From positions 1 through 64,000 of the forward strand of contig NZ_JANKBZ010000048.1 of NCBI RefSeq assembly GCF_024623785.1: DNA of 64,000 bases, in the 5' to 3' direction. Shown here in pieces: positions 11,602 to 33,163 of the stretch. The translations under genes were made by a program, and so were the position numbers. The stretch is from Archangium lipolyticum (GTDB lineage Bacteria; Myxococcota; Myxococcia; Myxococcales; Myxococcaceae). The notes beneath the pieces are model-generated. The model made no database searches. It saw only the letters and a program-made list of their open reading frames with translations, and was not told the DNA's origin. Every line of letters starts with the position of its first letter. The first letter of the stretch is position 1.

Positions 11602-11687
11602 CAGACCCGGCGTGTATACCCCCCCTCTACATGGGGTCGGCCGTGCGGTAGACAGTCGGCGGGCTCTCCATGCCCTCGAGGGGGAAC

Positions 11688-14600
11688 ATGAATCGACTTG
11701 CATCGAAGTGGAGGAACAACGCGCTCGCGTTGCTCCTCGTGGTCTGTGCTGGATGCGGCACGCTGGAAGAGCCACGGACGGAGAGCGACGGGGAGCCAGG
11801 CCAACAAGAAGCGCGCCTGAGCGTCTACACCGGCTCCATGTCGACGTCCCGTGACGACTTCACCGCCACCGTGCTCACCAACGGCAAGGTGCTCGTGGTG
11901 GGTGGGCAGGGAGGAGGGGCGAGCGCCGAGCTCTACGACCCGGCCACGGGTTCCTTCTCGCCCACCGGGAGCATGCCCACCTACCGCCGGAACCATAAAG
12001 CCGTGCGACTCAATGACGGCCGGGTGCTGGTGATGGGGGGCATCGAATCAATCGGCACCCAGTCCCAGTATCTGAATCAGGCCGTGCGCTATGATCCGGC
12101 CACCGGAACCTGGAGCCCCGCTGGCAACCTGCTCAAGGCGCGCGCCAGTCATACCGCCACGCTGCTGCAGGATGGACGCGTCCTCGTCACCGGAGGAACT
12201 GCCTCCAACTACGCCTTTCTGGAGAGCTGTGAGTTGTTCGATCCCGCCACGGGAGTCTGGACGAGCGCGGCGCCCATGAGCGTCACACGCACGGGGCACT
12301 CGGCCACGCGGCTGCAGAACGGCAAGGTGCTCGTGGTGGGCGGTAGCGTTCCCGCGAGCGCCGAGCTCTACGACCCGGCCACCAACACCTGGAGCCCCGC
12401 CAGCAGCCCGGCCGCCACGCGCCGGCACCACGAGGCCTTCCTCTTCGCGGACGGACGGGTGTTCGTGGCGGGGGGAGCGAATGCCGCGCCGGTGAGCCCG
12501 CTGTACTTCACGAGCGCCGAGCTCTACGACCCGGCCACCAACACCTGGACCACCACCGGCTCGATGAACATGGCGCGCCAGCAGCAGGCGGGCATGCTCC
12601 TGTCCTCGGGCATGGTGCTGATCTCGGGCGGTTACGGCAGCAACTACACCTCGAGCGTCGAGCGGTACAACCCCGCCACGGGAACCTGGACCACGATCAG
12701 CCCACTGCGCGTGGCCCGGGGCAGCCACGGGGTGGCGCTGCTGAGCGGTGATCGCATGTTGGTGATGGGCGGACTGGGCGGAGGTGGCTCATCGGCGGAG
12801 CTCTACACGGACGACCCCATCTGCACGCCCACCACGTGCGCGGCGCAGGGGAAGAACTGCGGCACCCTCTCCGATGGCTGTGGGGGGACGCTCAACTGCG
12901 GCACCTGTTCGAGCGGTCAGGCCTGCTCGCCGCTCAATGTGTGCGTCTCGACCGGCGGCGTGCTCTACGACGCCCTGCGCAAGGCCCCTCGCTGCACCGT
13001 GAGCGGGCCCATCTGCGATTCCCAGGGCCTGCTGATGGGCCGTGGTCCCCTGGGCCCCGAGCCCAATGCTCCCAATACCCTGGCGGGCAGTCCCAGCGTG
13101 GACGGTTCCACGGGCACCTTCCATTTCGACGAGTCGCTGGATGGATTGAAGGTGTCCTCGCTGGACGGCACTCCGCTGACCGCGGGCAAGCAGGCGCGCA
13201 TCGAGGCCACGACGTGGACCTACTCGACCGTGGACAAGCTGGAGCTCTACGTCACGGGCACCGCCGACTCCCCATCGTGGACCTATCTCACCACGCTCTA
13301 CCCGACTTCCAGCAACAGGAGCCTGGTGCTCTCCACGACGTTCACCCTGCCCACCCTGGGAACGGAGCTGTACGCCATTCGCGGAGTCTTCTGCCGGAAT
13401 GGCACGACGAACCGCTGCGATATCGGTGCCTACAGCGACTATGACGATCTGGCGTTCCCGGTGAGCGGAGCGATTGCACCGAACCCGCCCCCCACCGTGC
13501 AGATCTCCGAGCCGATCGCCGACGCCCAGCTCCAGGGCACGGTGCTCATCAAGGCGGACGCCACGGACGACCAGGGCGTCGCGAAGGTGGAGTTTTTCGT
13601 GGACCAGACGCCGCTCGGCACGGACACGAGCGCCCCCTTCGAGTACGCGTGGGGCACGCTCAGCGCCTACAACGGAGTCCACGAGCTCCAGGCCAAGGCC
13701 TACGACACCACGGGCCAGGTGACGGCCTCCTCGAAGGTGCAGGTCCGGGTCTTCAACGACATCGCGGTGCCCACCGCCTCCATCCTGACGCCCACCGCGG
13801 ACCAGACGTGGGGGAGCCTGGGCTCCATCCAGGCCCGGGGCTCCGACGACACCGGGGTCACCCTGCTGGAGGTCTACGTGGATGGAACCCTCGTCCATTC
13901 CACCACGTCCAACTTCGCCAACTTCTTCTGGAGCACCAGTGGCGTTTCCGAGGGAACGCATACGCTGTTCGCGCGCGCGTACGACGTGGTGGGCAAGATG
14001 GGTGAATCCGCGCCGGTGCAGGTCTTCGTGGACAAGACGCCGCCCGCGGTCACCATCACCTCGCCGCAGGCGAACGCGACGGTCGGCGGAGTGGTGACGG
14101 TGACGGTGGATGCGACGGACGCGCGGGGCATGGGGCCCGTGGAACTGCTCTTGAACAGCAACACGGTCTACGTCCCCTCGAACAACACCCATCCCTACAC
14201 CTTCATCTGGGACACCCGGACCTACGCCGCGGGCACGTACAGGCTTCAGGCCCGGGCCCGAGACGTGGCGGGCAACCAGGCGCTGAGCACGCCGCTGGAG
14301 GTCACCCTCCTTCCGGACACCACGCCTCCCACGGTCTCCATCACCTCGCCGGCGGGAGGTACGACGGTGTCGGGGATGCGCTCGGTGACCGTGGATGCCC
14401 GGGATGACCGGCTCGTCCGGACCGTGGAGCTGCTCGTGGATGGCTCCGTCATCTCGTCCCCGACCGCCTCGGGCGAGCCCATCCCCTGGAACACCGGGAT
14501 GTACACCTATGGACTCCACACGCTGGTGGCCCGGGCGCGTGACTACGCGGGCAACGTGACGGACTCGGCGCCGGTGCAGGTCACCGTCGACAACCACGCG

Positions 14601-15140
14601 CCGCCCCCTCCCCCGCCACCGCCCTCCGCCACCGCCGTCTACGACGCCGCGCGGCTGGCGCCGGGCTGCATGCCGGCGGGCTCGGCCTCGTGTGACTCGG
14701 CGAGCCTCCTGGTGGGCCGCGCCACGCTGGGACCCGAATCCCATGCCCCCAACACGCTCTACTCCTCGTGCCAGGACGGTACGGGTGGCTCCTTCCATGC
14801 GGATGAGTCGTTGGACCGGTTGAAGGTGTCCACGGTGGACGGCACGGCGTTGGCCGCGGGCAAGACGGTGCGCATCGAGGCCACGGTGTGGGCCTGGGGC
14901 TCCGGCAGCTCGGACGCGCTGGACCTCTACTACACCGCGGACGCCAGCAATCCCTCGTGGACGTACCTGAGCACGCTCATTCCCTCCGCCGGTGGGCAGC
15001 AAGTGCTCTCCACGACCTACACCCTGCCGGTCGGCGCGGTGCAGGCCGTGCGTGGCGTGTTCCGCTACGGCGGCTCACCGGGCTCCTGCGTGGCGGGCAG
15101 CTATAACGACCAGGACGACCTGTTCTTCGCGGTGAAGTAG
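11688..15140 (+). CDS. Large Kelch-repeat and Ig-like surface lipoprotein
   Basis: This 1150-residue protein has a signal ending in VVCAGC, a lipobox, so it is probably anchored to a membrane and exposed. Residues about 45-370 hold seven Kelch-type blades with the recurring pattern NGKVLVVGG ... AELYDPATGTW, expected to form a beta-propeller. A short cysteine-rich segment (about 375-415, CGTLSDGCGGTLNCGTC) follows. A module beginning VLYDALRKAPRC comes next, then four Ig-like domains (each opening like PTVSITSPAGGTTVSG), a proline-rich linker and a second copy of the first module beginning AVYDAARLAPGC. The inner ATG is preferred because GAGGGGG lies 3 nt upstream. No enzyme motif is seen; adhesion or surface binding is an inference. 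Confidence 0.85.
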   Translation: MNRLASKWRNNALALLLVVCAGCGTLEEPRTESDGEPGQQEARLSVYTGSMSTSRDDFTATVLTNGKVLVVGGQGGGASAELYDPATGSFSPTGSMPTYRRNHKAVRLNDGRVLVMGGIESIGTQSQYLNQAVRYDPATGTWSPAGNLLKARASHTATLLQDGRVLVTGGTASNYAFLESCELFDPATGVWTSAAPMSVTRTGHSATRLQNGKVLVVGGSVPASAELYDPATNTWSPASSPAATRRHHEAFLFADGRVFVAGGANAAPVSPLYFTSAELYDPATNTWTTTGSMNMARQQQAGMLLSSGMVLISGGYGSNYTSSVERYNPATGTWTTISPLRVARGSHGVALLSGDRMLVMGGLGGGGSSAELYTDDPICTPTTCAAQGKNCGTLSDGCGGTLNCGTCSSGQACSPLNVCVSTGGVLYDALRKAPRCTVSGPICDSQGLLMGRGPLGPEPNAPNTLAGSPSVDGSTGTFHFDESLDGLKVSSLDGTPLTAGKQARIEATTWTYSTVDKLELYVTGTADSPSWTYLTTLYPTSSNRSLVLSTTFTLPTLGTELYAIRGVFCRNGTTNRCDIGAYSDYDDLAFPVSGAIAPNPPPTVQISEPIADAQLQGTVLIKADATDDQGVAKVEFFVDQTPLGTDTSAPFEYAWGTLSAYNGVHELQAKAYDTTGQVTASSKVQVRVFNDIAVPTASILTPTADQTWGSLGSIQARGSDDTGVTLLEVYVDGTLVHSTTSNFANFFWSTSGVSEGTHTLFARAYDVVGKMGESAPVQVFVDKTPPAVTITSPQANATVGGVVTVTVDATDARGMGPVELLLNSNTVYVPSNNTHPYTFIWDTRTYAAGTYRLQARARDVAGNQALSTPLEVTLLPDTTPPTVSITSPAGGTTVSGMRSVTVDARDDRLVRTVELLVDGSVISSPTASGEPIPWNTGMYTYGLHTLVARARDYAGNVTDSAPVQVTVDNHAPPPPPPPPSATAVYDAARLAPGCMPAGSASCDSASLLVGRATLGPESHAPNTLYSSCQDGTGGSFHADESLDRLKVSTVDGTALAAGKTVRIEATVWAWGSGSSDALDLYYTADASNPSWTYLSTLIPSAGGQQVLSTTYTLPVGAVQAVRGVFRYGGSPGSCVAGSYNDQDDLFFAVK

Positions 15141-21269: not shown

Positions 21270-21612
21270 CTCTTCGCGCGGACAGCACTTCAGCGGTTCC
21301 AGGCCAGGCCCCGATGGCCTGCGGTCCGGTGGCTGTCCACCGGCTGTCAGGAAGACGCCGGACGCCGGGATTCTTTTTTGTCCTCTTTTTTTCTTCGCCG
21401 CGGAGGTGGCGCGAAAAAGCAGGGAGGAATTCCCATAAAAGAATTTCGGGCTGCCCCGTCTTTCGGGCAGCCGGGGATGAACACTCCGGTCGCTGGACCT
21501 CCCCAAAGCTTGAGTCGGTAGACCCCAGGTCCGTCGAAGCCCTGAGGGGAACGGCCGACTCATGCCCAGGTCGGGGCTCGGCTTCCCACCACCCGCATCC
21601 ATCGAGGCAGAC
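21270..21612. promoter_or_regulatory. Non-coding leader region upstream of the sigma-factor locus, with hairpins and T-tracts
   Basis: This stretch has no convincing gene. It holds a hairpin CCGGTGG-4 nt-CCACCGG (21326-21343), two T-tracts unusual for this genome (21374-21379 and 21385-21392), an AT-rich patch (AATTCCCATAAAAGAATTTC, 21429-21448) and a second hairpin GGCTGCCC-8 nt-GGGCAGCC (21449-21472). It lies between divergent genes, so promoters for the secreted repeat protein and for the sigma-factor operon are expected. The second hairpin directly after the AT-rich patch could be a terminator-like or leader structure. No promoter of known class could be assigned. Confidence 0.45.
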
Positions 21613-21795
21613 ATGAAGCTCCAGCCCGAGCCCGATTCCCTTCCGCCGGATCCGAAGCAGCGGGAGCAGCAGGTCCACGCGGCCTTCGAGCAGCAGGTGG
21701 ATGTCGCCATGCGCGACTCCGTCGACTCCGCGTGGTCTCGTCGCTCGAAGATGCGCCTGCTCTTCGATTGCGATCGCTCCCCCGAGGCCCGCTGA
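21613..21795 (+). CDS. Possible small polar protein upstream of the sigma factor
   Basis: This frame would give 60 residues, rich in Gln, Glu, Arg and Asp: MKLQPEPDSLPPDPKQRE, then VHAAFEQQVDVAMRDSVDSA and WSRRSKMRLL. Third positions are mostly G or C, and it lies 63 bp upstream of the sigma-factor frame on the same strand. The ribosome-binding site is weak (GAGGCAGAC). No family is recognised and no signal peptide or membrane helix is visible. It may be a small regulator belonging to the sigma/CHAT operon, or a chance frame. Confidence 0.35.
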   Translation: MKLQPEPDSLPPDPKQREQQVHAAFEQQVDVAMRDSVDSAWSRRSKMRLLFDCDRSPEAR

Positions 21796-21858
21796 GACCC
21801 GGTGTCTCTGGACAACTCCACCCAACCCGCCTTCTCATGAAGAGAGTCGTGGTTCGCC

Positions 21859-22476
21859 ATGTCTTCTTGGATGATGCACGCCAGGGCAGAAGAGGCGTCT
21901 CCGATTCGTATGAGCCATCCCCCGAACGCCAAGCAGCGCCGAGCAGAAGCGCTGGTGCGCGAGCACCGGGCCCGTCTGCTGCGCATCGCCCGCAGGCTGT
22001 GTGGCACGAGCAGCGTGGATCCGGAGGATCTCGTGCAGGAGACGCTGGTGCGCGCCCTCCAGAACCTGGAGCAGCTGGAGGCTCGCGGAGTGGAATCACT
22101 CGAGGCCTGGCTGGGCAGCACGCTCACCCATCGCTTCCTCGACCATTGCCGGCGGCGGCGCACCGAGGTGAGGGCGTTGCCCGCGCTGAAGGTGGTGCAG
22201 GAGCAGGAGGTATCACTCGCGGGGACGCCGCGTGAGTCGTGGGAGCAGGTGCCCGATGAGGACTTCCACCACGCCATCGACCAGCTCGAGGCGCGGCACC
22301 GGGAGGCCTATGTCCTCCATGCCCGGGGCTACAAGTACCAGGCCATCGCGCGGCAGCTGAACATTCCCATGGGCACGGTGGCCACCTGGCTGTACCAGGC
22401 GCGCCAGAAGCTCCGGCGGCTCCTCTCTCCGGGAATGGAGCCGGAGGACGCGGTCCAGGAGGCGGATCCTTCATGA
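21859..22476 (+). CDS. ECF-type RNA polymerase sigma factor
   Basis: This protein is up to 205 residues long and directs RNA polymerase to a dedicated promoter set. Region 2 is visible as VREHRARLLRIARRLCG followed by DPEDLVQETLVRALQNL. Region 4 is a helix-turn-helix, REAYVLHARGYKYQAIARQL then PMGTVATWLYQARQKLRRLL. The start is uncertain: an internal ATG 51 bp on (MSHPPNAKQ) is also possible and neither has a strong ribosome-binding site. The stop overlaps the start of the zinc-finger/CHAT gene by 4 bp, the usual sigma/anti-sigma arrangement. By analogy it should be held inactive by that membrane protein and autoregulate its operon. Confidence 0.9.
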   Translation: MSSWMMHARAEEASPIRMSHPPNAKQRRAEALVREHRARLLRIARRLCGTSSVDPEDLVQETLVRALQNLEQLEARGVESLEAWLGSTLTHRFLDHCRRRRTEVRALPALKVVQEQEVSLAGTPRESWEQVPDEDFHHAIDQLEARHREAYVLHARGYKYQAIARQLNIPMGTVATWLYQARQKLRRLLSPGMEPEDAVQEADPS

Positions 22477-25430
22477 GCAACGCCTGTGAGCGTCTCGAGC
22501 GCTTCGTGGATGGTGAGTTGGAGCCCGCGGAGGCGGATGCATTCCGCGAGCACCTGCTCTCCTGCGAGCCCTGCCAGGCCGCGCTGAGCGAAGCGGTGCA
22601 GCTCGAGCTGCGGGCCGAGAGGCTCCTGGCGGACGAGGAGCCACGGACCCAGGTGCTGCGCCTGTCGCAGGCGCTCCCCGCACGGCGATGGGGGCGCGCG
22701 CGTCTCGTGGCGATGGGGACGGGGCTGGCGGCGCTCGCGGCCTGCGTGCTGGCCCTGGTGTACACGAGCATCGCGCCGCCTCGCGTCCCCGCGGAGGTCT
22801 GGCTCGCCGAGGCGCCCACGCGTTCCATCGAGGCCCGGGTGAGCGACGGGCGGGCGGATGGGCACAGGACCTACGACGTGCCGCGCTCTGGCCCCGGAGG
22901 CGCGGCGGAGAATGGGTCTCCCTCCCTGGAGGCACTCGCGACGCTGGAGCGCCAGCGGGACTTCCGTGGCATCGCCGCGGCGTGGCTGGTGCGCGGCGAG
23001 TGGAAGCAGGCGGCGGAGTACCTCGCGCGGGCCCCCGCGGGGCCGGAGGTGGACAACGACCTGGCCGTCATCGCACTCGGCCAGGACCGGCCGGACGAGG
23101 CGCTCGCGTTGTTGGAGCGCTCACTGCGGGCAAGGCCCCGGCACGCGCAGGCGCTGTGGAACCAGGCGCTCGCCTACCGACAGCTCGGCCTGCTCTTGAA
23201 AGCCGCGGGGTCCTTCGAGCAGGTGGTGGCGCTCGGCGAGCCGGGCTGGTCCGGCGAGGCGTCACGCGCCGCGGCCGCGTTGCGCGAGGAGGTACGGCGC
23301 CGCAAGGCCTCGTGGGAGGCGCTCATCCAGGCCGGGCGAGCCATGGTGGAGCACGGCACGCCCCTGTCCCCCGCGCAGGTGTCCGAGCTCCCCGGCCTGG
23401 CTCGCCTCTACCTCTACGATGCCGTCCGTGCCTCGCCCTCGCGGGAGCGGGTGTTGGGCCTGCTCCCGGTGGCGCGGCAGCTCGATGACATCGACTCCGG
23501 GACGCACCTCCAGGCCTACGTGCAGCGGACCGCGGGCCGGGACTTCACTGTGCGCCGGCCCCTCGCGGAGACCTATGCGTCACTGGCGCTGGGCACCCTG
23601 CCGCCAGCGGAGCTCCCCGGCTTCCTGGAGCGGTTGCGCCGCTCTCCGGAGCAGGACCTCCTGCTGGGCGCGCTGCTCTTCAGTCCGGCGCCGGGCACCT
23701 CCCTGGACGAGTACCGCCGGCTGGCCCTGGCGACGGAGGACCCCTGGTTCGCACTGCTCGCGGACGACAAGCAGGCGGAGGCGGAGCTGTCCCGGGGCGA
23801 GGCGCTCGCGGCGGAAGCGCGGCTGCTGGGAGCGCTGCGCCGCTGCGGCGACACGGCACGGCTCGACTACCGCTGTGGGCGGGTGCAGCGCCTGCTCTCC
23901 ACTGTCTATGACACCCTCCACCGGCCGCAGGAGGCACACCAGCACGCGCTGGGGGCACTGCGACGCGGCCTGCGCAGCCATGATTGGCCGCTGGAGCTGC
24001 TGCTGTTCGAGGACCTGGGGCAGCTCTCGGCCCACACGGACAAGCTGTTGCTGACGCACGCCTACCTGGAGGAGTTCCTCGCCCGCATGGAGCCGGCGGC
24101 CTGCGACTACCAGGACTTCGTCCACACCCTCCTGGCCGCGACCCACCAGTCGGCCCTGGACTTCGATGGCGCCCGGAACGAGGTCGACATCGCGGCCCGC
24201 TGCGGACGGACGCCCACGTTGGCCCGGGCGGCCGTCGTGGCGGACCTGGCACGCCAGCGCCCCCGTCCAGAGGATGAAGACACGCTGCGCAAGGCGCTGG
24301 AAGCAGTTCGCACCGCCTCCCCCTCCAACCCCGGAGAGAGCGCACTCGCCACCAGTGTCGAGGGACGGTTCGAGCTCGAGCGCAACCGCCCGCTCGGTCA
24401 ATCCCTGCTGCGGCGCGCGATCGCCGAGACGGAGCGGCTACCCGCAACCGATGTGAACGGGCGCAAGGCCCGGGCCTACAGCTACACCTCGCTCCTCTTC
24501 GACGCGGGCCGGCACGGTGAATACGACCAGGCCCTGGTGCTGTTCAGCGCCGAGCTGGAAATGACCCCGCCCGGCCGGTGCGTGCTGGGCGTCACGGTGG
24601 AGGACGAGCGCACGCTGGTCGTCATCCGCGACACCGCGGGGAAGACACACGGCGCCTACGATGCGAGCCGCAAGCAGCCGTTCGCCGGGGCCGGTGGGCT
24701 CGTGCCCGACGGGATGGTGGAGGCCCTGCGTGCCTGCGAGAGCGTGGACGTCCTGGCGCGTCCTCCCGTGCAGGGACGCTCCGGCCTGCTGCCATCGGAT
24801 GTGGCCTGGGCCTACCGGGTGGGTCCAACCACGACCCGTCCCTCGGCCCTGCCCACGCGGCGACTGGTCGTCACGGACATCGAGTTGCCCGAGGAGCTCC
24901 GGCAGGTCCTACCGCGCATCGAGGCCCCGTTCGAGCCGGAGTCCCCGGGCGACACGACGGTCCTCCGCGGCTACGCCGCGACGCCCTCCCGGGTTCTCGA
25001 GGCCATGGCGAACGCCACGGAGATCGCCATCCACGCACATGGGATGATCGACCTCGGGGTTTCCGACGCCTCGTTCCTCGTCCTGTCGAAGGAGGATGGG
25101 GGGCGCTTCACGCTGACGGCCCGTGACCTTCAGGAGACACACCTGGAGGGCCGTCCCCTCGTGCTGCTGGCCGCATGCTATTCCGGGCGGACGACGCCCT
25201 CCCTGCACGAGTCTTTCGGGCTGCCCATCGCCTTCATCCACGCGGGGGCGCGGTGGGTGCTGGCCACCACGGAGAAGATTCCCAACAGCGAGGCGGCCCG
25301 CTTCTTCGAGCCGGTGCTTGCCCGCATCCGGGCGGGAGAACCACCGGCCAGGGTGCTGCGTGACGAGCGGCTGGCCTGGCGCAAGCGCCAGGGGAATCCC
25401 TGGGTGGAGCAGGTCCTGCTGTTCCAGTGA
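22473..25430 (+). CDS. Membrane anti-sigma zinc finger fused to TPR-like repeats and a CHAT caspase-like protease
   Basis: This 985-residue fusion has three parts. (1) An N-terminal ZAS (zf-HC2) anti-sigma domain, CERLERFVDGEL to HLLSCEPC, with Cys5, His27, Cys31 and Cys34 in the H-x3-C-x2-C zinc pattern. (2) One membrane helix at about 78-99, then a long helical region with TPR-like units (for example DEALALLERSLRARPRHAQALWNQALAYRQLG) from about 140 to 700. (3) A C-terminal CHAT domain with catalytic-type His856 (IHAHG) and Cys902 (LLAACYSG), ending WVEQVLLFQ as CHAT proteins often do. It overlaps the sigma gene by 4 bp. The topology implies a cytoplasmic zinc finger and an extracytoplasmic TPR-CHAT part. 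Whether the protease cuts itself, the sigma inhibitor or another protein is unknown. A GTGA overlap and a strong ribosome-binding site lead into the next gene. Confidence 0.9.
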   Translation: MSNACERLERFVDGELEPAEADAFREHLLSCEPCQAALSEAVQLELRAERLLADEEPRTQVLRLSQALPARRWGRARLVAMGTGLAALAACVLALVYTSIAPPRVPAEVWLAEAPTRSIEARVSDGRADGHRTYDVPRSGPGGAAENGSPSLEALATLERQRDFRGIAAAWLVRGEWKQAAEYLARAPAGPEVDNDLAVIALGQDRPDEALALLERSLRARPRHAQALWNQALAYRQLGLLLKAAGSFEQVVALGEPGWSGEASRAAAALREEVRRRKASWEALIQAGRAMVEHGTPLSPAQVSELPGLARLYLYDAVRASPSRERVLGLLPVARQLDDIDSGTHLQAYVQRTAGRDFTVRRPLAETYASLALGTLPPAELPGFLERLRRSPEQDLLLGALLFSPAPGTSLDEYRRLALATEDPWFALLADDKQAEAELSRGEALAAEARLLGALRRCGDTARLDYRCGRVQRLLSTVYDTLHRPQEAHQHALGALRRGLRSHDWPLELLLFEDLGQLSAHTDKLLLTHAYLEEFLARMEPAACDYQDFVHTLLAATHQSALDFDGARNEVDIAARCGRTPTLARAAVVADLARQRPRPEDEDTLRKALEAVRTASPSNPGESALATSVEGRFELERNRPLGQSLLRRAIAETERLPATDVNGRKARAYSYTSLLFDAGRHGEYDQALVLFSAELEMTPPGRCVLGVTVEDERTLVVIRDTAGKTHGAYDASRKQPFAGAGGLVPDGMVEALRACESVDVLARPPVQGRSGLLPSDVAWAYRVGPTTTRPSALPTRRLVVTDIELPEELRQVLPRIEAPFEPESPGDTTVLRGYAATPSRVLEAMANATEIAIHAHGMIDLGVSDASFLVLSKEDGGRFTLTARDLQETHLEGRPLVLLAACYSGRTTPSLHESFGLPIAFIHAGARWVLATTEKIPNSEAARFFEPVLARIRAGEPPARVLRDERLAWRKRQGNPWVEQVLLFQ

Positions 25431-25459
25431 GCCGTCCGAACATCGAAAGGAGAGCACCC

Positions 25460-25960
25460 ATGAGGAAGATGATGTGGACGATGGTGGCGGCAGCCCCGCT
25501 CCTGATGGCCACTGAATGCCAGCTGGGCCCGCCCCCCGCAGACGAGCCCCAGTCCCAATGCGAGCCGCAGCCGACTCCACCGCAGCCACTGGTGGACCAT
25601 GTGGAGCTCATCTGGCGTGAGCCTGATTCCGGGGTCTTCGTGGCCTATCTGGTGGACGTGCGTAAGAGAGAGATCGTGCTCGCCGTCGAGGGAAAGGGCA
25701 CACAGTTCCAGCAGTTCCAGCAGCAGGTCGGCAGCATCGCCGCCAAGGATCGGTTGCTCTCGTTCTACATGCCGCTCGGCAATACGGGCTCCGGAGCCTT
25801 CCCCATCAAGCCGCCCCAACCGCCCACTCCTCCGGGCCATGAGGACCGCTGGAGGACGAATCTCGTCTCTTTCGGCCTCGATGTGGCCAGACAGCATGCA
25901 AACTTCATGACCCAACCCAATCTGTCCACGCAGTCACCCACGAATAACTCTCCTCCCTAG
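25460..25960 (+). CDS. Small exported protein downstream of the CHAT gene
   Basis: This 166-residue protein has a hydrophobic N-terminus (MRKMMWTMVAAAPLLMATEC) that looks like a signal. A cysteine follows, but the residue before it is Glu, so the lipobox is atypical. The mature part starts with a Pro/Gln-rich linker (PPPADEPQSQCEPQPTPPQP) and then a compact region (VELIWREPDSGVFVAYLVDV, RKREIVLAVEGKGTQF). The tail is again Pro-, Asn- and Ser-rich. The ATG is set by AAAGGAGAG upstream. It lies 29 bp behind the CHAT gene and is probably in its operon, so it is a candidate partner, ligand or substrate of that protein. No family is recognised. Confidence 0.78.
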   Translation: MRKMMWTMVAAAPLLMATECQLGPPPADEPQSQCEPQPTPPQPLVDHVELIWREPDSGVFVAYLVDVRKREIVLAVEGKGTQFQQFQQQVGSIAAKDRLLSFYMPLGNTGSGAFPIKPPQPPTPPGHEDRWRTNLVSFGLDVARQHANFMTQPNLSTQSPTNNSPP

Positions 25961-25989: not shown

Positions 25990-28020
25990 TCAATAGCGCG
26001 CCCGGAATCCCAACGACGGCAACGTCACGGGCGGCAGACCGAAGGGCTTGCGCACCAGCCCGCCCTTCTCGCGCCCGTAGGTGTAGCGGAAGGCCTCCTT
26101 CGTCAATGAGACGTTGAAGACGTCCAGCCACGCTTCCATCGCCAGCGGCCCCAGCGTGCCCGTCTTGGATACCCGGCCGTCCACCCGGAAGTAGCCCGGC
26201 AGGCGTGTCACCCGGTCGCGGTCCGCCGGAATCCAGCGGGACGTGCCCTTCTCCGGCTCCACGCCCTCGCGCTGCGTATACGAGAAGAGGAGGTTCCCCG
26301 CCTCGGGCATCCCCGTGTTGTAGTGCAGCGTGGTCCCCACGGTGAGGCCCCAGGGCAGCTTCACCGTGACGGCTGTGTTGAAGACGTGCGCCTGTTCGAG
26401 CGACGAGGCGAGCGACACCTGCTCCGTGCCCACCACCTGCCCCGCGTCGTTCCGGCGCTCCACGGTCGTGCGCAGCGTGCGCCGCTGGAAGGTATAGGAC
26501 GCGAGGAGCGACCAGCGGTCCGAGAGCGCGCGCCGGGCCAGGAGCTCCACGCCATAGCCATGCCCCTCCGCCGTGCGCTTCCGCCCTCGCGCCACCGGGT
26601 CGTCCGCGAGCATGTCGAAGGACAGCACGTCCAGTTCCACCGTGCGCAGCATCGGGTGGGCGAACACGTCCGCGCCGAAGGTGAAGCCCGCGGGGCCTCG
26701 CACGTCCGCGCCCACCTCCACCTGGAGGGCCCGCTGCATGCCGAGGCGCAACGCCGCCGCTTCCACCCCCGGCGCGTCGATGAGGTGGGCCGGTGGCTGG
26801 TGCATGAATCCCGCCCCCAGGCGCAGCGCCACCGTCTCCGAGAGCATCGCCCTCGCGTGCAACCGGGGCTCGACGGCCACCTGGTTCAGCGCGGGTGCCA
26901 GCAGGTAGCCATCCACGCGCACGCCCGGGGTGAGCCGCCACCTGTCCCGTGTCCACGTGGCCTGCGCGTACGCGCCCGCGAACGTGGCCCGGGCGAGCGA
27001 CTGAAGGACGCCCGTGGTGACGGTGGGGCGGGAAGGGTCCCCGGCCTCGCCAGGGCGGAAGGTGGTGGACTGGTCGATGTCCGCGAGCCGGCGCTCCACG
27101 TCCGCGCCCGTCTCCACCGCGAGCTGTTCCGACAGCGAGGCGCGCCACGCCACCCTCGCCCCGAGCGTGCGCTCGGAGAGGCCCACGGTGACTCGCGAGG
27201 CCTCGCCTCCACCGTTGGCGCCCAGGGTGTCGTGGCCGTAGGTGACGGCGGCCTCGGCCTCGCCCGCGCCCAGGGGATGCGTGAGGCGGAGGTCCACGCG
27301 GTGGAAGGCGGTCCCCAGCCGGACGACCGTCCCCGTGCCGCGCAGGCCCGCGTCATCCGAGCTGCCCAGGGCGAACAGGCGCAGCGAGCCCCGGCCCACG
27401 GCCTGGGTGACGCGCGCCTGATAGTCGAAGAGGCCGAGCACCAGGTCCGGGCCCGGCGAGCTCCGCAGGCCATTGATGACCGACGCGGCGATCCACGGGG
27501 TATAGGCGAAACGGCCGGCGAGCGTGAGCTCCGTGCCCGTGGAGGCGATGGGCACCTGGGTGAGCACACCGACGTTGAACAGGTCGATCGAGCCGGCGGC
27601 GCGTACCGTGTCCGTGCTCGGCGCGACGAGCCGGGCTTCCACGGTGCCGCCCAGCTCCCGGCCGAAGCGCGCCGGAGGGGGACCCCGGTGGAAGTCGAAC
27701 CCGGAGACGAGCTCGGGGCTGATGGCCGAGGGGCCCACCCACACGTGATAGAGCTGGGGAACGCGCACGCCGTCCAGGTAGATGCCCGTGGACGACGGAG
27801 CCGACCCTCGCACCACGGGCAGGCTCGCGCCGGAGACGATGTGACTCACCCCGGGCAACACCATGAGGGAGCGGAACGGCTCGCCTCCCCAGGTGCCCGC
27901 CCAATCGTGCAGTTCGGAGGACTCGAAGGTGAGGGGGACACCGCTGCTCGTGGACATCTCCCCAGCCTGGGAGATGGAGCCCACGAGGAGCGTCAGCAGG
28001 ACACCTGGCGTCGTACGCAC
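25990..28020 (-). CDS. TonB-dependent outer-membrane receptor
   Basis: This 676-residue protein has a signal peptide at its GTG start (LLTLLVGSISQAGE). A plug domain follows (GGEPFRSLMVLPGVSHIVSG, then VVRGSAPSSTGIYLDGVRVP). A long run of amphipathic beta strands with aromatic girdles makes up a 22-strand-type barrel. The C-terminus ends SLGFRARY, with a terminal aromatic residue as needed for outer-membrane insertion. It lacks an obvious carboxypeptidase-like leader domain. Such receptors take up bound compounds with energy from TonB-ExbBD; the ligand here is unknown. An ADYC lipoprotein gene lies upstream on the same strand, separated by two palindromic repeats. Confidence 0.9.
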   Translation of the reverse strand: MRTTPGVLLTLLVGSISQAGEMSTSSGVPLTFESSELHDWAGTWGGEPFRSLMVLPGVSHIVSGASLPVVRGSAPSSTGIYLDGVRVPQLYHVWVGPSAISPELVSGFDFHRGPPPARFGRELGGTVEARLVAPSTDTVRAAGSIDLFNVGVLTQVPIASTGTELTLAGRFAYTPWIAASVINGLRSSPGPDLVLGLFDYQARVTQAVGRGSLRLFALGSSDDAGLRGTGTVVRLGTAFHRVDLRLTHPLGAGEAEAAVTYGHDTLGANGGGEASRVTVGLSERTLGARVAWRASLSEQLAVETGADVERRLADIDQSTTFRPGEAGDPSRPTVTTGVLQSLARATFAGAYAQATWTRDRWRLTPGVRVDGYLLAPALNQVAVEPRLHARAMLSETVALRLGAGFMHQPPAHLIDAPGVEAAALRLGMQRALQVEVGADVRGPAGFTFGADVFAHPMLRTVELDVLSFDMLADDPVARGRKRTAEGHGYGVELLARRALSDRWSLLASYTFQRRTLRTTVERRNDAGQVVGTEQVSLASSLEQAHVFNTAVTVKLPWGLTVGTTLHYNTGMPEAGNLLFSYTQREGVEPEKGTSRWIPADRDRVTRLPGYFRVDGRVSKTGTLGPLAMEAWLDVFNVSLTKEAFRYTYGREKGGLVRKPFGLPPVTLPSLGFRARY

Positions 28021-28183: not shown

Positions 28184-29215
28184 CTACGGCGTCTCGCTCT
28201 GAAGCAGCGTCCCCGTGCTGAAGGCGTCCGCCGTGCCGCACTGCGGCTTCACCGGAGCCCCAGGGCACGACACGGGCGCGTGCGCGCGGTTGTGGTCCGT
28301 GAAGCAGCGTGCCCCCTCGGTGTCCCACTCCGCTTCCAGCCCCCAGCCCTCGGTGTCCGACTGCACGTTCAGCGCGTCGTAGATGTTCACCCACTGCCCG
28401 TTCACCGTGTGCGAGGTGCCGTCGCCGCAGTAGTCCGCGCGGATGAGCCGCGTGCACGCCTGGTGGTGCGCCGCCAGGCTCACGCCCCCGACGCTCGCCC
28501 AGGGCTTGTAGCCCATGTGGATGCACTTCGCGATGGCCGCGCCCTCGCACGCGAAGGTGAAGGTGTTCGGGTCGTCGTACTTCGCGCCCCCCACGCCCGG
28601 CAGGTCCTGCCGGTAGTCCCAGCGCCCCGCCACGGCGATGGCGTCCGCCGGCTGCCCGCTCGCGTCACGGCAGATGGGATACCAACGGCCATCCGTCGGC
28701 TCGCGATAGGACACCCGGTACTTCCACACGTCCTGCTCCGCGCCCGTGCCCGGGGTGATGCCGTCCACGCGCAGCTCCACCTTGCCGCCGTTGCCCAGGT
28801 TGCCCGTGAACCACGCGTGCGCGAACTGCGTTCCGGACACGGACCGTCCCAGGTACCGGCCGTGCAGCACCGAGCCCTCCAGCCACACGGCGTCGAGCCG
28901 CCCTTCCTTCCAGCCATAGCCACGCCCTGGAGCCGGCTCGGTCCAACCCCCGAGCCACGCGCCCGCGTAGTTCACCGACACCAGCATCCGGGCGAGGCCA
29001 TTGAGCGCATCCCCGTTCAGGTCCGAGCCATTCAAGTCGGAGCCATTCAGGTCCGAGCCGTTCAGGTTGGACCCGTTCAGGTTCGAGCCATTGCTCACAC
29101 CCAACGCCGCGCCCGACTCACCGAAAGACGCGTCCGGAAGCACCGGCGCCTCGCCTCCACACGCCACCACTCCCACGGTCGCCACGACAACACGGCACCA
29201 CCCACTCGCTCGCAT
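28184..29215 (-). CDS. ADYC-domain lipoprotein with N-terminal NG-repeat
   Basis: This 343-residue protein begins with a signal ending VVACGG, a likely lipobox. A short repeat of five-residue units follows (NGSNLNGSDLNGSDLNG, residues about 42-72), then the body. The signature string LIRADYCGDGTSHTVNG identifies the ADYC domain, a family seen mainly in myxobacteria with unknown function. The body holds many paired cysteines (CRDASG, FACEGAAIAKCIHMG, CTRLIRADYC, CFTDHN), suggesting disulfides outside the cytoplasm. GGAGG a short distance before the ATG fixes the start. It lies upstream of the TonB receptor gene on the same strand. Confidence 0.82.
   Translation of the reverse strand: MRASGWCRVVVATVGVVACGGEAPVLPDASFGESGAALGVSNGSNLNGSNLNGSDLNGSDLNGSDLNGDALNGLARMLVSVNYAGAWLGGWTEPAPGRGYGWKEGRLDAVWLEGSVLHGRYLGRSVSGTQFAHAWFTGNLGNGGKVELRVDGITPGTGAEQDVWKYRVSYREPTDGRWYPICRDASGQPADAIAVAGRWDYRQDLPGVGGAKYDDPNTFTFACEGAAIAKCIHMGYKPWASVGGVSLAAHHQACTRLIRADYCGDGTSHTVNGQWVNIYDALNVQSDTEGWGLEAEWDTEGARCFTDHNRAHAPVSCPGAPVKPQCGTADAFSTGTLLQSETP
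29013..29087 (-). repeat. Five 15-bp tandem repeats inside the ADYC gene
   Basis: Five consecutive 15-bp units of the type CCRTTCARGTYSGAG encode the NGSDLNGSNL segment of the ADYC lipoprotein. Units differ at one to four positions. Such repeats can change copy number by slipped replication, altering the length of the linker without a frameshift. Confidence 0.85.
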
Positions 29216-29344
29216 GGCCCTACCTCCGTCCCCATCCCCACTTGCGAGCGACGGTGTGCAGCGGCCAATTTCCGGGCAAGCCACACATGTCGTACCCGGG
29301 CACTTGCACCGTTCACGGCTTCACCCCCGCGGGGGACCGTGGCG

Positions 29345-32300
29345 TCAGTCCGGCGAGTGCAACGTACGGGAGGGCAGGTCCGCGCACACGCGAATGCCCA
29401 CGGTGATGTCCCGCAGGGTACGTTCGGGCAGCTCCCGGTTGGCCAGACGTGCCGAGGCGGCGGCGAAGTAGTAGGCGCCTCCGCGGGCCACCACCTGGCC
29501 GGGCTCCACCGCCGAGTGCGTCCACTCCCAGGCATTGCCGGCCAGGTCGTCCACGCCGAAGGGGCTGCGCGAGGCGGGATGGGAGCCCACCTCGTCGGGG
29601 CCGAAGCCCCCCGGCTCCTTGCCGTAGGTGAGATCGAAGTTCGCGTCATCCGGAGCCAGTGAGTCTCCGTGGGGGAACTCGCGGCCGTCCTCGCCCCGAG
29701 CGGCGCGCTCCCACTCCAGCTCCGTGCACAGGCGTGCACCCGGCACCCGGCCCGTCCGGTCCAGCCACGCCGCGTAGGCCACCGCGTCCTCGAACGAGAT
29801 GCCGGTGACGGGGAAGTTCAGCCAGTCCTGCAGGGCACGCCGCTCCCGCTTCGCGTAGCGCAGCTTCTCGCCCGCCCGGACGGTGTAGGGCACGCCCCCC
29901 GGCTGGAAGCGGAGCGTCCACGTGCCCCCCACCCGCTCCAGCCGGAGCATGCCGTGGTAGGTGGTGCTCGTGCGCGGCATGCGCGGGGCCCGCTCCGCCG
30001 CGGGCAGCGACTCCAGGAAGGTCAGCCAGTCCGAGTACGTCGTCTCCCGGCGGGCGATGAGGAAGCCCGCCGTCTCCTTCGGGTGCAGCGGCACGGCGTT
30101 GAAGAACCCGCGCACGCTCGCATCCGCCGCGCTGCCGAAGAGCACGCGCCCGGGCGGGACGTAGACGAAGCCCGTGGGGAGCTCCCCCTCACGCAGCAGC
30201 GGCAGCCGCAGGTGTCTCCGCTCGCCGCGCATGAGGCGCAGCGGAACGAGCGCGGGCTCGTGGCCCGGGGCCCACACCCTCAGCCGCCAGTCTCCCGGTG
30301 GCACCGCCTTGTCCACCCAGGGCTCCGGCCCGAGTGACACCGGCTCTCCGAGGAGCTCGCGGCCCTCCACGTCCCGGGAGACGGGCCGCAGCTCCACCAT
30401 CGCCCCGGGAGCGGCGATGTCGAGCGTGACGAGCGTGGGGGCCGTCCAGCGCCGCCAGCGCTCCCCCGTCGTGTCGTACAGCCGCAACCGCTGCAACAGC
30501 GCCGGCAGCTCACTGGTCTTCAGCGACTGCTCGGCATGGAAGGCACGCTCGAGGAGGAAGTCGGCCAGGGCCTCGCGGACATCGTGGCGCATGGGGTCCA
30601 ACACCAGCGCGTGCTCCAGGTGGTCTCCCGCTTCGTCCAGGTGGCGGTGCAACACGGTCTCCGCCGTGACGGTGCGCGTCCAGGCCGCGTCGCCCTGCTC
30701 CTTGCGGCCCGCGTCGTAGTGGAGGAGGGCCTCCTCGCGCGCCGAGGTGAAGGCCGCGCGCTCCCGCTGTACCCGCTCCATCGCGGTGGCGGCCTCGGTG
30801 AGCCAGGCGCGCACCGCCGCGTCCCGCTTCGCCTCCTCGCGCAGCCGGAAGCCTCCGGAGACGAGCGCCAGCGAGAGGATGAAGCCCGCCATGAGGGCCC
30901 GCCGCATGCGGCGGCTGCGCACCACCGTGCGGCGCGAGGCCTCGAGGAAGGCCAGCTCGCGGCGGGTGAGCTCGGCGGGCTCCAACAGGGTGGCCTCGGC
31001 CAGTTGCCGCGTGCCCCAGAGGATGTCCCGCACATGGCCCAGGCGCTCCCAGTGCGCCGAGTCGGCCTCCAGCCGGGCCTGCACCTCGCGGCGCTCGGCG
31101 GCCTCGGCCAGCCAGCGCGCCAGCGTCCCCCAGCCGGACAGGAGCGCCTCGTGGGCCACCTCATAGGAGGTACCGCCCTCCCCTTCCCGGGCCACCAGCA
31201 GGCGCGCGCGCACCAGGGCCTCCAGCACCGTGCGGTGGCGCGGGTCGTCCCCCACCAGCTCCCGGTCCGTCTTGCGCGCCCGGGTGCCGTCCGCGGTGAT
31301 GAGGCGCAGCAGGACACCGCGCGCCACGGTGCGCTGATCCGGCAGCAGGCGCGCCACGGCCGCGTCCGCGTGCTTCGCCAGCGCGCCCCCCACTCCGCCC
31401 AGCCCATCCAGCGCCGTCTGGGGGATGAGGCCCGCGGCCACGTCCCGCGCCTCCCACAGCTCGGCGAGCGCGAACTGCAGCAGCGGCAGCCCGCTCTCGG
31501 TGGTGGAGGTGGAGGCCACCAGCGCATCCACCAGGGCCTCGGACTCGAAGCGCACGCCCGTGGCCCGTGCGGGACCCACCACGGCCTCGCGAATCTCCTC
31601 CGGGCCGAGCGCCCGCAGCAGGTAGAGCGCTCCGGACACCGCCGTGCCCAGCCCCGGCACCGCCGTCAGCCGGGTGAGGAAGTCGCTGCGGCACGTGGCC
31701 AGCAGGCGCACGCCGGACACACCGTCGGCGAGCCCTCCGAGCGCGAGGCCCGCCTGCGCGGCCTCCGCGTCGCCCGCCAGCGTCACCAGCTCCTCCATCT
31801 GGTCCACGTAGACGACGAGCCCCTCTTCCGCGCGGAGGTGGGCCCGCAGCCGGCGCGCGAGGCCCGTGGGATCCGAGCGCAAGGAGGCCACGAGCCCCTC
31901 CTCGTCCGCGCCCAGCACGGGGGCGAGCGCGGCGGCGAGCGCGGCGGCGGGGCGCCGGCCCGGGACCAGCCGCACCCCCCGCCAGCGCCGCCCGTCCTCC
32001 AGCGCGCCGTCGATGACACGGGGCAGCACTCCCGCGAGGCACAGCGAGGACTTGCCCACCCCGGAGTCACCGGCGATGAGCAGGAAGGACTCGGCCCGGA
32101 GCCGCTCCAGCACCTCGCGCTGCTCCCGCTTCCGGCCGAAGAAGAGGGCGCGGTGCTCGGCCTCGAAGGCCTGGAGGCCACGGTAGGGGTTGCCCTCGGG
32201 GACGGCGCCCGCGGCCTCGTCCCGGGAGAGTTGCTCCAGCGCGTCCAGCAGCAGCACGGCGGAGGCGTAGCGCTCCTCGGGCGCGCGGCGCAGGCAGCGG

Positions 32301-33163
32301 TCCACCACTGCGGCGAAGTCCGGGTCCACCCCCGGGGCGGCCTCGGCCAGGGGCCGCGCGTCCCGGTGGGCAATCACCACCGAGAGCTCCCTCAGGGGCA
32401 CGTTGCGGAAGGGCCCGCTGCCGGCGCACAGCTCATAGAGCACCAGGCCCAGCGAGTACACGTCGCTGCGGGCCGTGAGCTCCCCGCCCGCCCAGGCCTC
32501 CGGGGACATGAAATAGGGAGTGCCCACCAGCGTGCCATCCGGCAGCGACGGCAGGTCCACGCCATCGAGCGAGCCCGCCAGGGTCTCCGGGTCCAGGTCC
32601 GGCAGGAGGGGCAGGGCGGCTCCGGCCTCGGCGAGCGAGGAGTCCCCCGACACCGGCGCCTCCGGGTCCAGCAGCTTGGCCAGCCCGAAGTCCAGCAGCT
32701 TCACCTCGCCCGTCTCGGTGAGGATGGCGTTGCCCGGCTTGATGTCACGGTGCAGCACCCCGCGCCGGTGCGCCGCGCCGAGTCCCCGCGCCAGTTGCTT
32801 GCCGAGCTCCAGCACGCGCTCCCAGGGCAGGGGCCTGGGCAACCGGTCCAGGGTGGTGCCGCGGACGAACTCGGAGATGAGGTACGGGTGGTTCTCCAGC
32901 TGCCCCACCCGGTAGAGGGTGACGACATTGGGGTGCTGGACACGCGCCGCGGCCCGGGCCTCCACCAGGAAGCGGGTGAGCGCGCCAGCGTCCAGCGCCC
33001 GGACGAACTTCACCGCCACCGGCCGGTCGAGCAGCGTGTCCCGGGCCAGGAACACGCGTCCCGTGGCCCCATGGCCCAGCAGGCGCATCAGACGGTACTC
33101 GTCGAACGCCTCGGGTGGAGTCCACCCGTCGACATTGGACCTGGAAGCAGGCGAGGAGCCCAC
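29345..33163 (-). CDS. Ser/Thr protein kinase fused to a STAND-type NTPase and an FGE-like sensor domain
   Basis: This 1272-residue protein has four parts. A Hanks-type kinase (residues about 23-310) has the glycine loop LLGHGATGRVFLA, Lys52, HRDIKPGNAIL (Asp140) and DFG at 158-160. A STAND-like NTPase (about 325-720) begins NPYRGLQAFEAEHRALFFGR, with Walker A GDSGVGKSS near 365, LVVYVDQMEEL and a helical arm. A membrane helix (about 745-767) is followed by a TPR-like stretch and a PEGA-like beta segment. A C-terminal formylglycine-generating-enzyme-like domain (about 1010-1268) reads TGFVYVPPGRVLFGSA to LAGNAWEWTHS and RGGAYYFAAASARLANRE. The catalytic cysteine pair of true FGE is not visible there, so binding rather than catalysis is likely. 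The start is GTG with a weak ribosome-binding site. A response-regulator gene lies 45 bp upstream. Confidence 0.9.
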   Translation of the reverse strand: MGSSPASRSNVDGWTPPEAFDEYRLMRLLGHGATGRVFLARDTLLDRPVAVKFVRALDAGALTRFLVEARAAARVQHPNVVTLYRVGQLENHPYLISEFVRGTTLDRLPRPLPWERVLELGKQLARGLGAAHRRGVLHRDIKPGNAILTETGEVKLLDFGLAKLLDPEAPVSGDSSLAEAGAALPLLPDLDPETLAGSLDGVDLPSLPDGTLVGTPYFMSPEAWAGGELTARSDVYSLGLVLYELCAGSGPFRNVPLRELSVVIAHRDARPLAEAAPGVDPDFAAVVDRCLRRAPEERYASAVLLLDALEQLSRDEAAGAVPEGNPYRGLQAFEAEHRALFFGRKREQREVLERLRAESFLLIAGDSGVGKSSLCLAGVLPRVIDGALEDGRRWRGVRLVPGRRPAAALAAALAPVLGADEEGLVASLRSDPTGLARRLRAHLRAEEGLVVYVDQMEELVTLAGDAEAAQAGLALGGLADGVSGVRLLATCRSDFLTRLTAVPGLGTAVSGALYLLRALGPEEIREAVVGPARATGVRFESEALVDALVASTSTTESGLPLLQFALAELWEARDVAAGLIPQTALDGLGGVGGALAKHADAAVARLLPDQRTVARGVLLRLITADGTRARKTDRELVGDDPRHRTVLEALVRARLLVAREGEGGTSYEVAHEALLSGWGTLARWLAEAAERREVQARLEADSAHWERLGHVRDILWGTRQLAEATLLEPAELTRRELAFLEASRRTVVRSRRMRRALMAGFILSLALVSGGFRLREEAKRDAAVRAWLTEAATAMERVQRERAAFTSAREEALLHYDAGRKEQGDAAWTRTVTAETVLHRHLDEAGDHLEHALVLDPMRHDVREALADFLLERAFHAEQSLKTSELPALLQRLRLYDTTGERWRRWTAPTLVTLDIAAPGAMVELRPVSRDVEGRELLGEPVSLGPEPWVDKAVPPGDWRLRVWAPGHEPALVPLRLMRGERRHLRLPLLREGELPTGFVYVPPGRVLFGSAADASVRGFFNAVPLHPKETAGFLIARRETTYSDWLTFLESLPAAERAPRMPRTSTTYHGMLRLERVGGTWTLRFQPGGVPYTVRAGEKLRYAKRERRALQDWLNFPVTGISFEDAVAYAAWLDRTGRVPGARLCTELEWERAARGEDGREFPHGDSLAPDDANFDLTYGKEPGGFGPDEVGSHPASRSPFGVDDLAGNAWEWTHSAVEPGQVVARGGAYYFAAASARLANRELPERTLRDITVGIRVCADLPSRTLHSPD

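Follow-up and report, generated by a model that had tools for sequence, protein, structure and literature searches.

How might a single membrane-anchored chain that carries both a sigma-binding zinc finger and a protease-like domain control the sigma factor encoded directly upstream of it? The question is raised by a three-gene locus in the window, by which we mean the whole 64,000-nucleotide stretch of Archangium lipolyticum DNA analysed here. An ECF sigma gene (21859..22476, forward strand; 205 codons from the first ATG, with a later ATG at 21910 also possible) overlaps, through the sequence ATGA, the gene encoding a 985-residue protein (22473..25430, forward), and a gene for a small exported-looking companion of 166 residues (25460..25960, forward) begins 29 bp downstream of the latter. 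This order, the overlap and the gap agree with the initial annotation. The product of the first gene matches Sigma70_r2 (5.4e-19) and Sigma70_r4_2 (9.2e-13) in Pfam, and TIGR02937 over its cut-off. The initial annotation had let the locus begin at 21613; its three genes stand, and that start belongs to a putative 60-codon ORF 5' of the sigma gene (21613..21795, forward) that has no Pfam match. A weak candidate ECF-type promoter (GGAAC ... GGTC; 21548..21572, forward) is the one match to a loose pattern, and it finds no support in L051, the nearest relative.

The window also contains a gene for a 1272-residue protein in which protein kinase, nSTAND1 NTPase and FGE-sulfatase domains are fused (29345-33163, reverse strand), one for a 1156-residue protein that combines Kelch repeats with bacterial Ig domains (11670-15140, forward), and a TonB-dependent receptor gene (25990-28020, reverse) adjoining a gene for an ADYC-domain protein with a pentapeptide-like stretch (28184-29284, reverse).

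The 985-residue protein has the domains first read from its sequence, with Pfam, hydropathy and alignments in agreement and with zf-HC2, TPR and CHAT all above their Pfam cut-offs. At the N-terminus is a ZAS (zf-HC2) zinc finger (residues 6-35, 22488..22577; E 5.1e-8, 33.3 bits against a cut-off of 22.2) with an H-x3-C-x2-C motif formed by His27, Cys31 and Cys34. It is followed by a single strong hydrophobic helix, predicted by hydropathy and charge bias to cross the membrane (residues ~78-96, 22704..22760). The best TPR stretch (TPR_16, residues 196-254, 23058..23234; 2e-8) lies within a longer repeat region that is mostly helical from about residue 152 to 694 in a low-confidence model. The CHAT match spans residues 821-973 (24933..25391; E 4.8e-19, 69.3 bits against a cut-off of 24) and includes His856 (25038-25040) and Cys902 (25176-25178); all of these features are on the forward strand. 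The three zinc-finger residues and the His-Cys pair are invariant in a nine-member alignment.

The architecture is one that has been solved. The single 985-residue sequence matches PDB chain 8rot_B over residues 2-985 (E 1e-143; 37.5% identity to the printed part of DdvA) and, through its zinc domain, 8rlz_A, 'Antisigma factor DdvA' (E 1e-7); a search of PDB chains with the nine-member profile returned 8rot_B over the whole length and 8rlz_A over the zinc domain. Entries 8rot and 8rw5 were released on 2024-11-06, and the PDB titles read 'Cryo-EM structure of the transmembrane anti-sigma factor DdvA' and 'Symmetry expansion of dimeric transmembrane anti-sigma factor DdvA'. Structure prediction, proposed with the initial annotation, gave a poor AF2 model (mean pLDDT 49.4), too poor to judge the CHAT site; a Foldseek search still ranked DdvA first. 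Because re-comparison of this model gave Z scores to DdvA (18.2 and 15.3, rmsd near 20) little above that of unrelated helical repeats (14.9), family membership rests on sequence. DdvA, from the Myxococcus xanthus DdvS-DdvA system (8rlz, 8rot, 8rw5), is likewise a membrane anti-sigma with the same domain order over its whole length, and its printed chain also has the His and Cys; it differs in sharing 37.5% identity with the window protein and in belonging to another clade. In the comparison with DdvA, 14 of the rows shown outscore the best row from the window's clade (L051, 442 bits). In one midpoint-rooted FastTree, the window protein and L051 are joined with support of 1.0, and then join Myxococcus-type orthologues, while DdvA sits in a separate well-supported clade, its exact place inside which is weak (0.319). 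These comparisons identify the 985-residue protein as a paralogue of DdvA and not its orthologue. The locus is a typical member of the family, whose prototype, DdvA, has already been solved.

Placement of the TPR-CHAT part outside the cytoplasm is supported by the charge pattern around the helix and by co-varying cysteine pairs. In an earlier, smaller ORF set, 78 of 79 ZAS-bearing proteins had a strong helix and 78 of 79 had more positive charge on its N-terminal side; among the ZAS-less ORFs of that set (n=28, two of them cut), 23 showed a clear helix and 17 a clear charge bias. Across 122 alignment rows, Cys458 and Cys468 occur together in 117 and are both absent from five, never singly; Cys544 and Cys577 are both present in 87, both absent from 23 and single in 12; Cys703 and Cys755 are present in all. 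Co-varying pairs beyond the helix fit disulphides, so a periplasmic TPR-CHAT region is predicted. Fisher values calculated for the family take no account of how its members are related. The initial reading, in which a membrane anti-sigma with a sigma of its own is joined to a TPR-CHAT region outside the cytoplasm, fits both kinds of evidence and is the architecture of DdvA. The 2024 DdvA paper reportedly describes a periplasmic TPR-CHAT region whose His-Cys site is incomplete and faces the dimer interface, and is said to raise autoproteolysis in trans.

The combination had initially been called uncommon, which does not hold. Matches at E<=1e-3, many of them partial, occur in 85 of 145 genomes class-wide, and matches at E<=1e-20 in 67 of 195 genomes of a phylum sample; 66 of the 67 belong to the window's family, and the remaining one to a different family within the same order. 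Counted at E<1e-40, there are two copies in this genome and ten in G062. When named genomes were scanned, one near relative came up, in a Myxococcus (L015). A plasmid origin was rejected, tblastn having given two CHAT-only matches with 15% coverage, and a PADLOC search for defence systems returned weak matches only.

The family was surveyed through 143 distinct ORFs, from hits picked for fetching and not a random sample, which comprise 86 ZAS-TPR-CHAT genes, 36 TPR-CHAT genes lacking the ZAS and 21 ZAS-TPR genes lacking the CHAT. Four TPR-CHAT ORFs whose start is cut off (L068, L115, L133 and L177) were left out of the 32 ZAS-less genes considered uncut, while L129, 7 bases from a contig end, was kept. 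Six of the ZAS-TPR genes (L055, L069, L074, L075, L113 and L126) reach the end of a stretch or contig, so that a CHAT domain may lie beyond; L145 and L157 contain two of these six genes again. The gene order proposed at the outset recurs in these chosen loci. A sigma gene lies directly upstream of all 86 fused genes (at -8 to +116 bp, with 52 at -4), and a companion was detected downstream of 56 of them. Sigma genes also directly precede 13 of 15 uncut ZAS-TPR genes (19 of 21 with the six possibly cut ones) and none of the 32 uncut ZAS-less TPR-CHAT genes.

Thirteen loci are split, with a ZAS-less TPR-CHAT gene near a sigma and ZAS-TPR pair, on separate chains. The genes are on the same strand in ten (L154, L156, L157, L159, L160, L163, L164, L165, L166 and L183) and on opposite strands in three (L053, L054 and L145). 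A gene on the opposite strand intervenes in the ten same-strand loci, which makes the parts neighbours and not one operon. Short ZAS-TPR genes lacking a CHAT follow a full sigma and ZAS-TPR-CHAT pair at L140:5856-6770 and L170:7940-9076, with no sigma of their own directly upstream.

The window's companion has a signal-peptide-like start with a lipobox that is not canonical, and matches nothing in Pfam or NCBIfam at E<=1. By BLAST it is similar to the L015 companion (27% over 95 residues, E 1.6e-7) and not to that of L051, the nearest relative (E 0.13); its structure model is poor (47.1), with a best structural match of Z 3.9. Across the family, small downstream proteins form five usable clusters, a further one, cluster 5, having been dropped as a shadow ORF opposite a Cupin_8 gene. 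Profile comparison links cluster 0 with 1 and 3, cluster 1 with 2 and 3, and cluster 2 with 3 (probability 80-97%); between clusters 0 and 2 there is no direct link (below 1%), and cluster 4 has just a weak one, to 3 (35-67%). Besides the fused genes noted above, 16 of the 32 ZAS-less genes have a detected companion, and because the profiles were built from the same downstream candidates, these counts characterise the set and cannot serve as an independent test. A crude signal measure, applied to ORF calls some of which may be false, found an exported-like neighbour next to 47 of the 86 fused genes, one with no signal next to 16, and none called for 23. Cluster 2, mostly in the clade that holds DdvA, has no signal-like start. 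Judged from these comparisons, the companion is a fast-evolving gene that in many clades keeps its position after the CHAT gene, and is neither universal nor always exported. The initial suggestion that the small exported protein is a signal, or a substrate, is plausible.

Cupin_8/JmjC-type genes, an assignment for which Pfam was run on one gene, occur in all 15 uncut ZAS-less TPR-CHAT loci with no detected companion, one to three or more in each (L154, L156-L160, L163-L168, L183, L145 and L155). These loci belong to a super-clade of the tree in which no companion was detected.

Upstream sequences connect some of these operons. The motif statements that follow are based on alignments of clades and on patterns that were chosen once these had been viewed. 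The pattern CGAAGRGA-N12-CGTT lies upstream of the sigma gene in all 27 testable Myxococcus-type orthologues and in no other of the 83 testable upstream regions, the window's included; six complete genomes have 14 sites, one of them at this operon in each genome, against two for the reversed control. The window contains six two-mismatch matches to this orthologue motif against 7.1 expected. A second pattern, GAAG-N15-CGTT, lies upstream of all 14 sigma-less TPR-CHAT operons with a cluster 1 companion, 13 of which have the longer form GGGAAGAT-N13-CGTT (at most one in 30 shuffles). Upstream regions of sigma genes have the shorter form in 37 of 98 cases (shuffles 0-2) and the longer in eight. 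A de novo dyad search of 48 thinned upstream regions gave nine loci, no better than the shuffle maxima of 8-12. We infer that one sigma may serve both sigma-linked and sigma-less operons. This genome has two GGGAAGAT-N13-CGTT sites and neither of these kinds of operon at E<1e-40, so another sigma may also read the motif.

The six genomes together hold 46 GGGAAGAT-N13-CGTT sites, against one for the reversed control. Thirty of the 46 were read (L198-L227), and by eye they precede four sigma genes, four TPR-CHAT genes and 16 genes for exported-looking proteins, the remainder comprising three before other genes and three with no called gene. The pattern may be the signature of a broader ECF regulon for secreted proteins.

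That more than half of the sites read precede genes for exported-looking proteins would suit a reading in which the companion is a mere output gene of the sigma regulon and makes no contact with the TPR-CHAT region, as would the large super-clade in which no companion was detected. Set against this, the companion follows 14 TPR-CHAT genes that have neither a ZAS nor a neighbouring sigma; it therefore seems to travel with the CHAT gene and not with the sigma. We regard a pure output role as a serious possibility, if a somewhat improbable one. Since these 14 genes still have the companion downstream, coupling to a sigma appears to be optional.

The account that we favour, and consider fairly probable, is that the locus is a DdvS-DdvA-type signalling cassette in which periplasmic sensing by the TPR-CHAT region leads to a CHAT cut, loss of the anti-sigma and release of the sigma. 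By analogy with DdvA and other ZAS anti-sigmas, the cytoplasmic ZAS of a resting cell would hold the ECF sigma at the inner membrane. An envelope signal would be sensed by the periplasmic TPR-CHAT region of a dimer, the His-Cys site of CHAT would cut, most likely the neighbouring chain in trans, and intramembrane proteolysis would complete the loss of the anti-sigma. The freed sigma would then transcribe its own operon together with the companion gene, a step supported by the conservation of a promoter-like motif in Myxococcus-type orthologues, which is absent from the window locus. The companion itself might be a fast-evolving ligand, inhibitor or substrate of the TPR-CHAT region.

RseA and RsiW depend on separate proteases and are not known to carry a CHAT domain, in which they differ from the window protein. 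They resemble it in having a cytoplasmic sigma-binding part and proteolytic release, as described in PMC10028731, and the nine-member profile matches RsiW over the ZAS part (E 0.00075). Such ordinary anti-sigmas, for example RseA with DegS (PMC10028731), lend weight to an alternative in which the TPR-CHAT region binds a ligand and an altered dimer lets housekeeping site-1 and site-2 proteases reach the stalk, with no cut by CHAT at all. The CHAT match is also partial (profile positions 122-270 of 289). Just past the helix, all three gene types share a conserved juxtamembrane motif, which so gives no specific evidence of a cleavage site. A receptor of this kind would not readily explain why all 118 CHAT genes with an intact start retain the catalytic His and Cys while other positions vary; His856 and Cys902 are invariant in all 122 alignment rows, whereas position 854 is His in 105. 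We consider a non-proteolytic receptor rather unlikely. For the proteolytic cassette there is also a precedent in the CASP system (Csx29, Csx30 and CASP-sigma), where a TPR-CHAT protease, Csx29, tied to an ECF-type sigma and its inhibitor, cuts that inhibitor, Csx30 (PMC10028731); cleavage of a sigma inhibitor by a TPR-CHAT protease therefore exists as chemistry. The CASP protease and inhibitor are separate proteins, the protease being switched by a CRISPR RNA complex, whereas the window encodes one membrane chain.

Another possibility, which we think unlikely, is that CHAT acts mainly on some other substrate, such as the companion or an invader protein, and that the anti-sigma part just tunes expression of the effector. 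The 14 TPR-CHAT genes that retain a companion in the absence of a ZAS or adjoining sigma are consistent with this, but the 15 uncut ZAS-less genes with no detected companion speak against it. The death-like response raised in the initial annotation, in which an activated CHAT kills the cell in the manner of a caspase, found no support and is very improbable: CHAT does belong with caspase-like peptidases (PMC10028731), but its extracytoplasmic placement and the tie to a sigma suit signalling.

Beyond the signalling cassette itself, we put forward tentatively, and with rather more doubt than conviction, a broader hypothesis. The TPR-CHAT region, together with a partner that differs by clade (either a Cupin_8 gene or a small protein that is exported in most cases), would form the core of a modular periplasmic protease-sensor, to which a sigma is optionally coupled through a fused or separate ZAS; CHAT would act on the ZAS chain in trans, and a single sigma could use a shared promoter to drive both the cassette it belongs to and sigma-less TPR-CHAT operons at a distance. 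In the texts consulted we found no account of the companion gene, sigma-less TPR-CHAT operons, split ZAS/CHAT loci or an ECF-like motif common to some sigma-less and sigma-linked operons, some of which the 2018 and 2024 DdvS-DdvA papers may cover.

The new value lies at the level of the family, in its companions, split loci and shared promoters. In Myxococcus xanthus, the sigma DdvS drives an antiphage island (PMC12288465), the promoter PddvS requires DdvS, inactivation of DdvA makes DdvS active, and as of 2015 the inactivating signal was described as unknown (PMC4374960). The family offers three handles on that signal: split loci, where the CHAT and sigma-binding chains can be mutated separately; the companion, as a candidate ligand or substrate; and the predicted promoters, as a read-out of sigma release. 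Relatives with split chains could show how such membrane-spanning switches are turned on.
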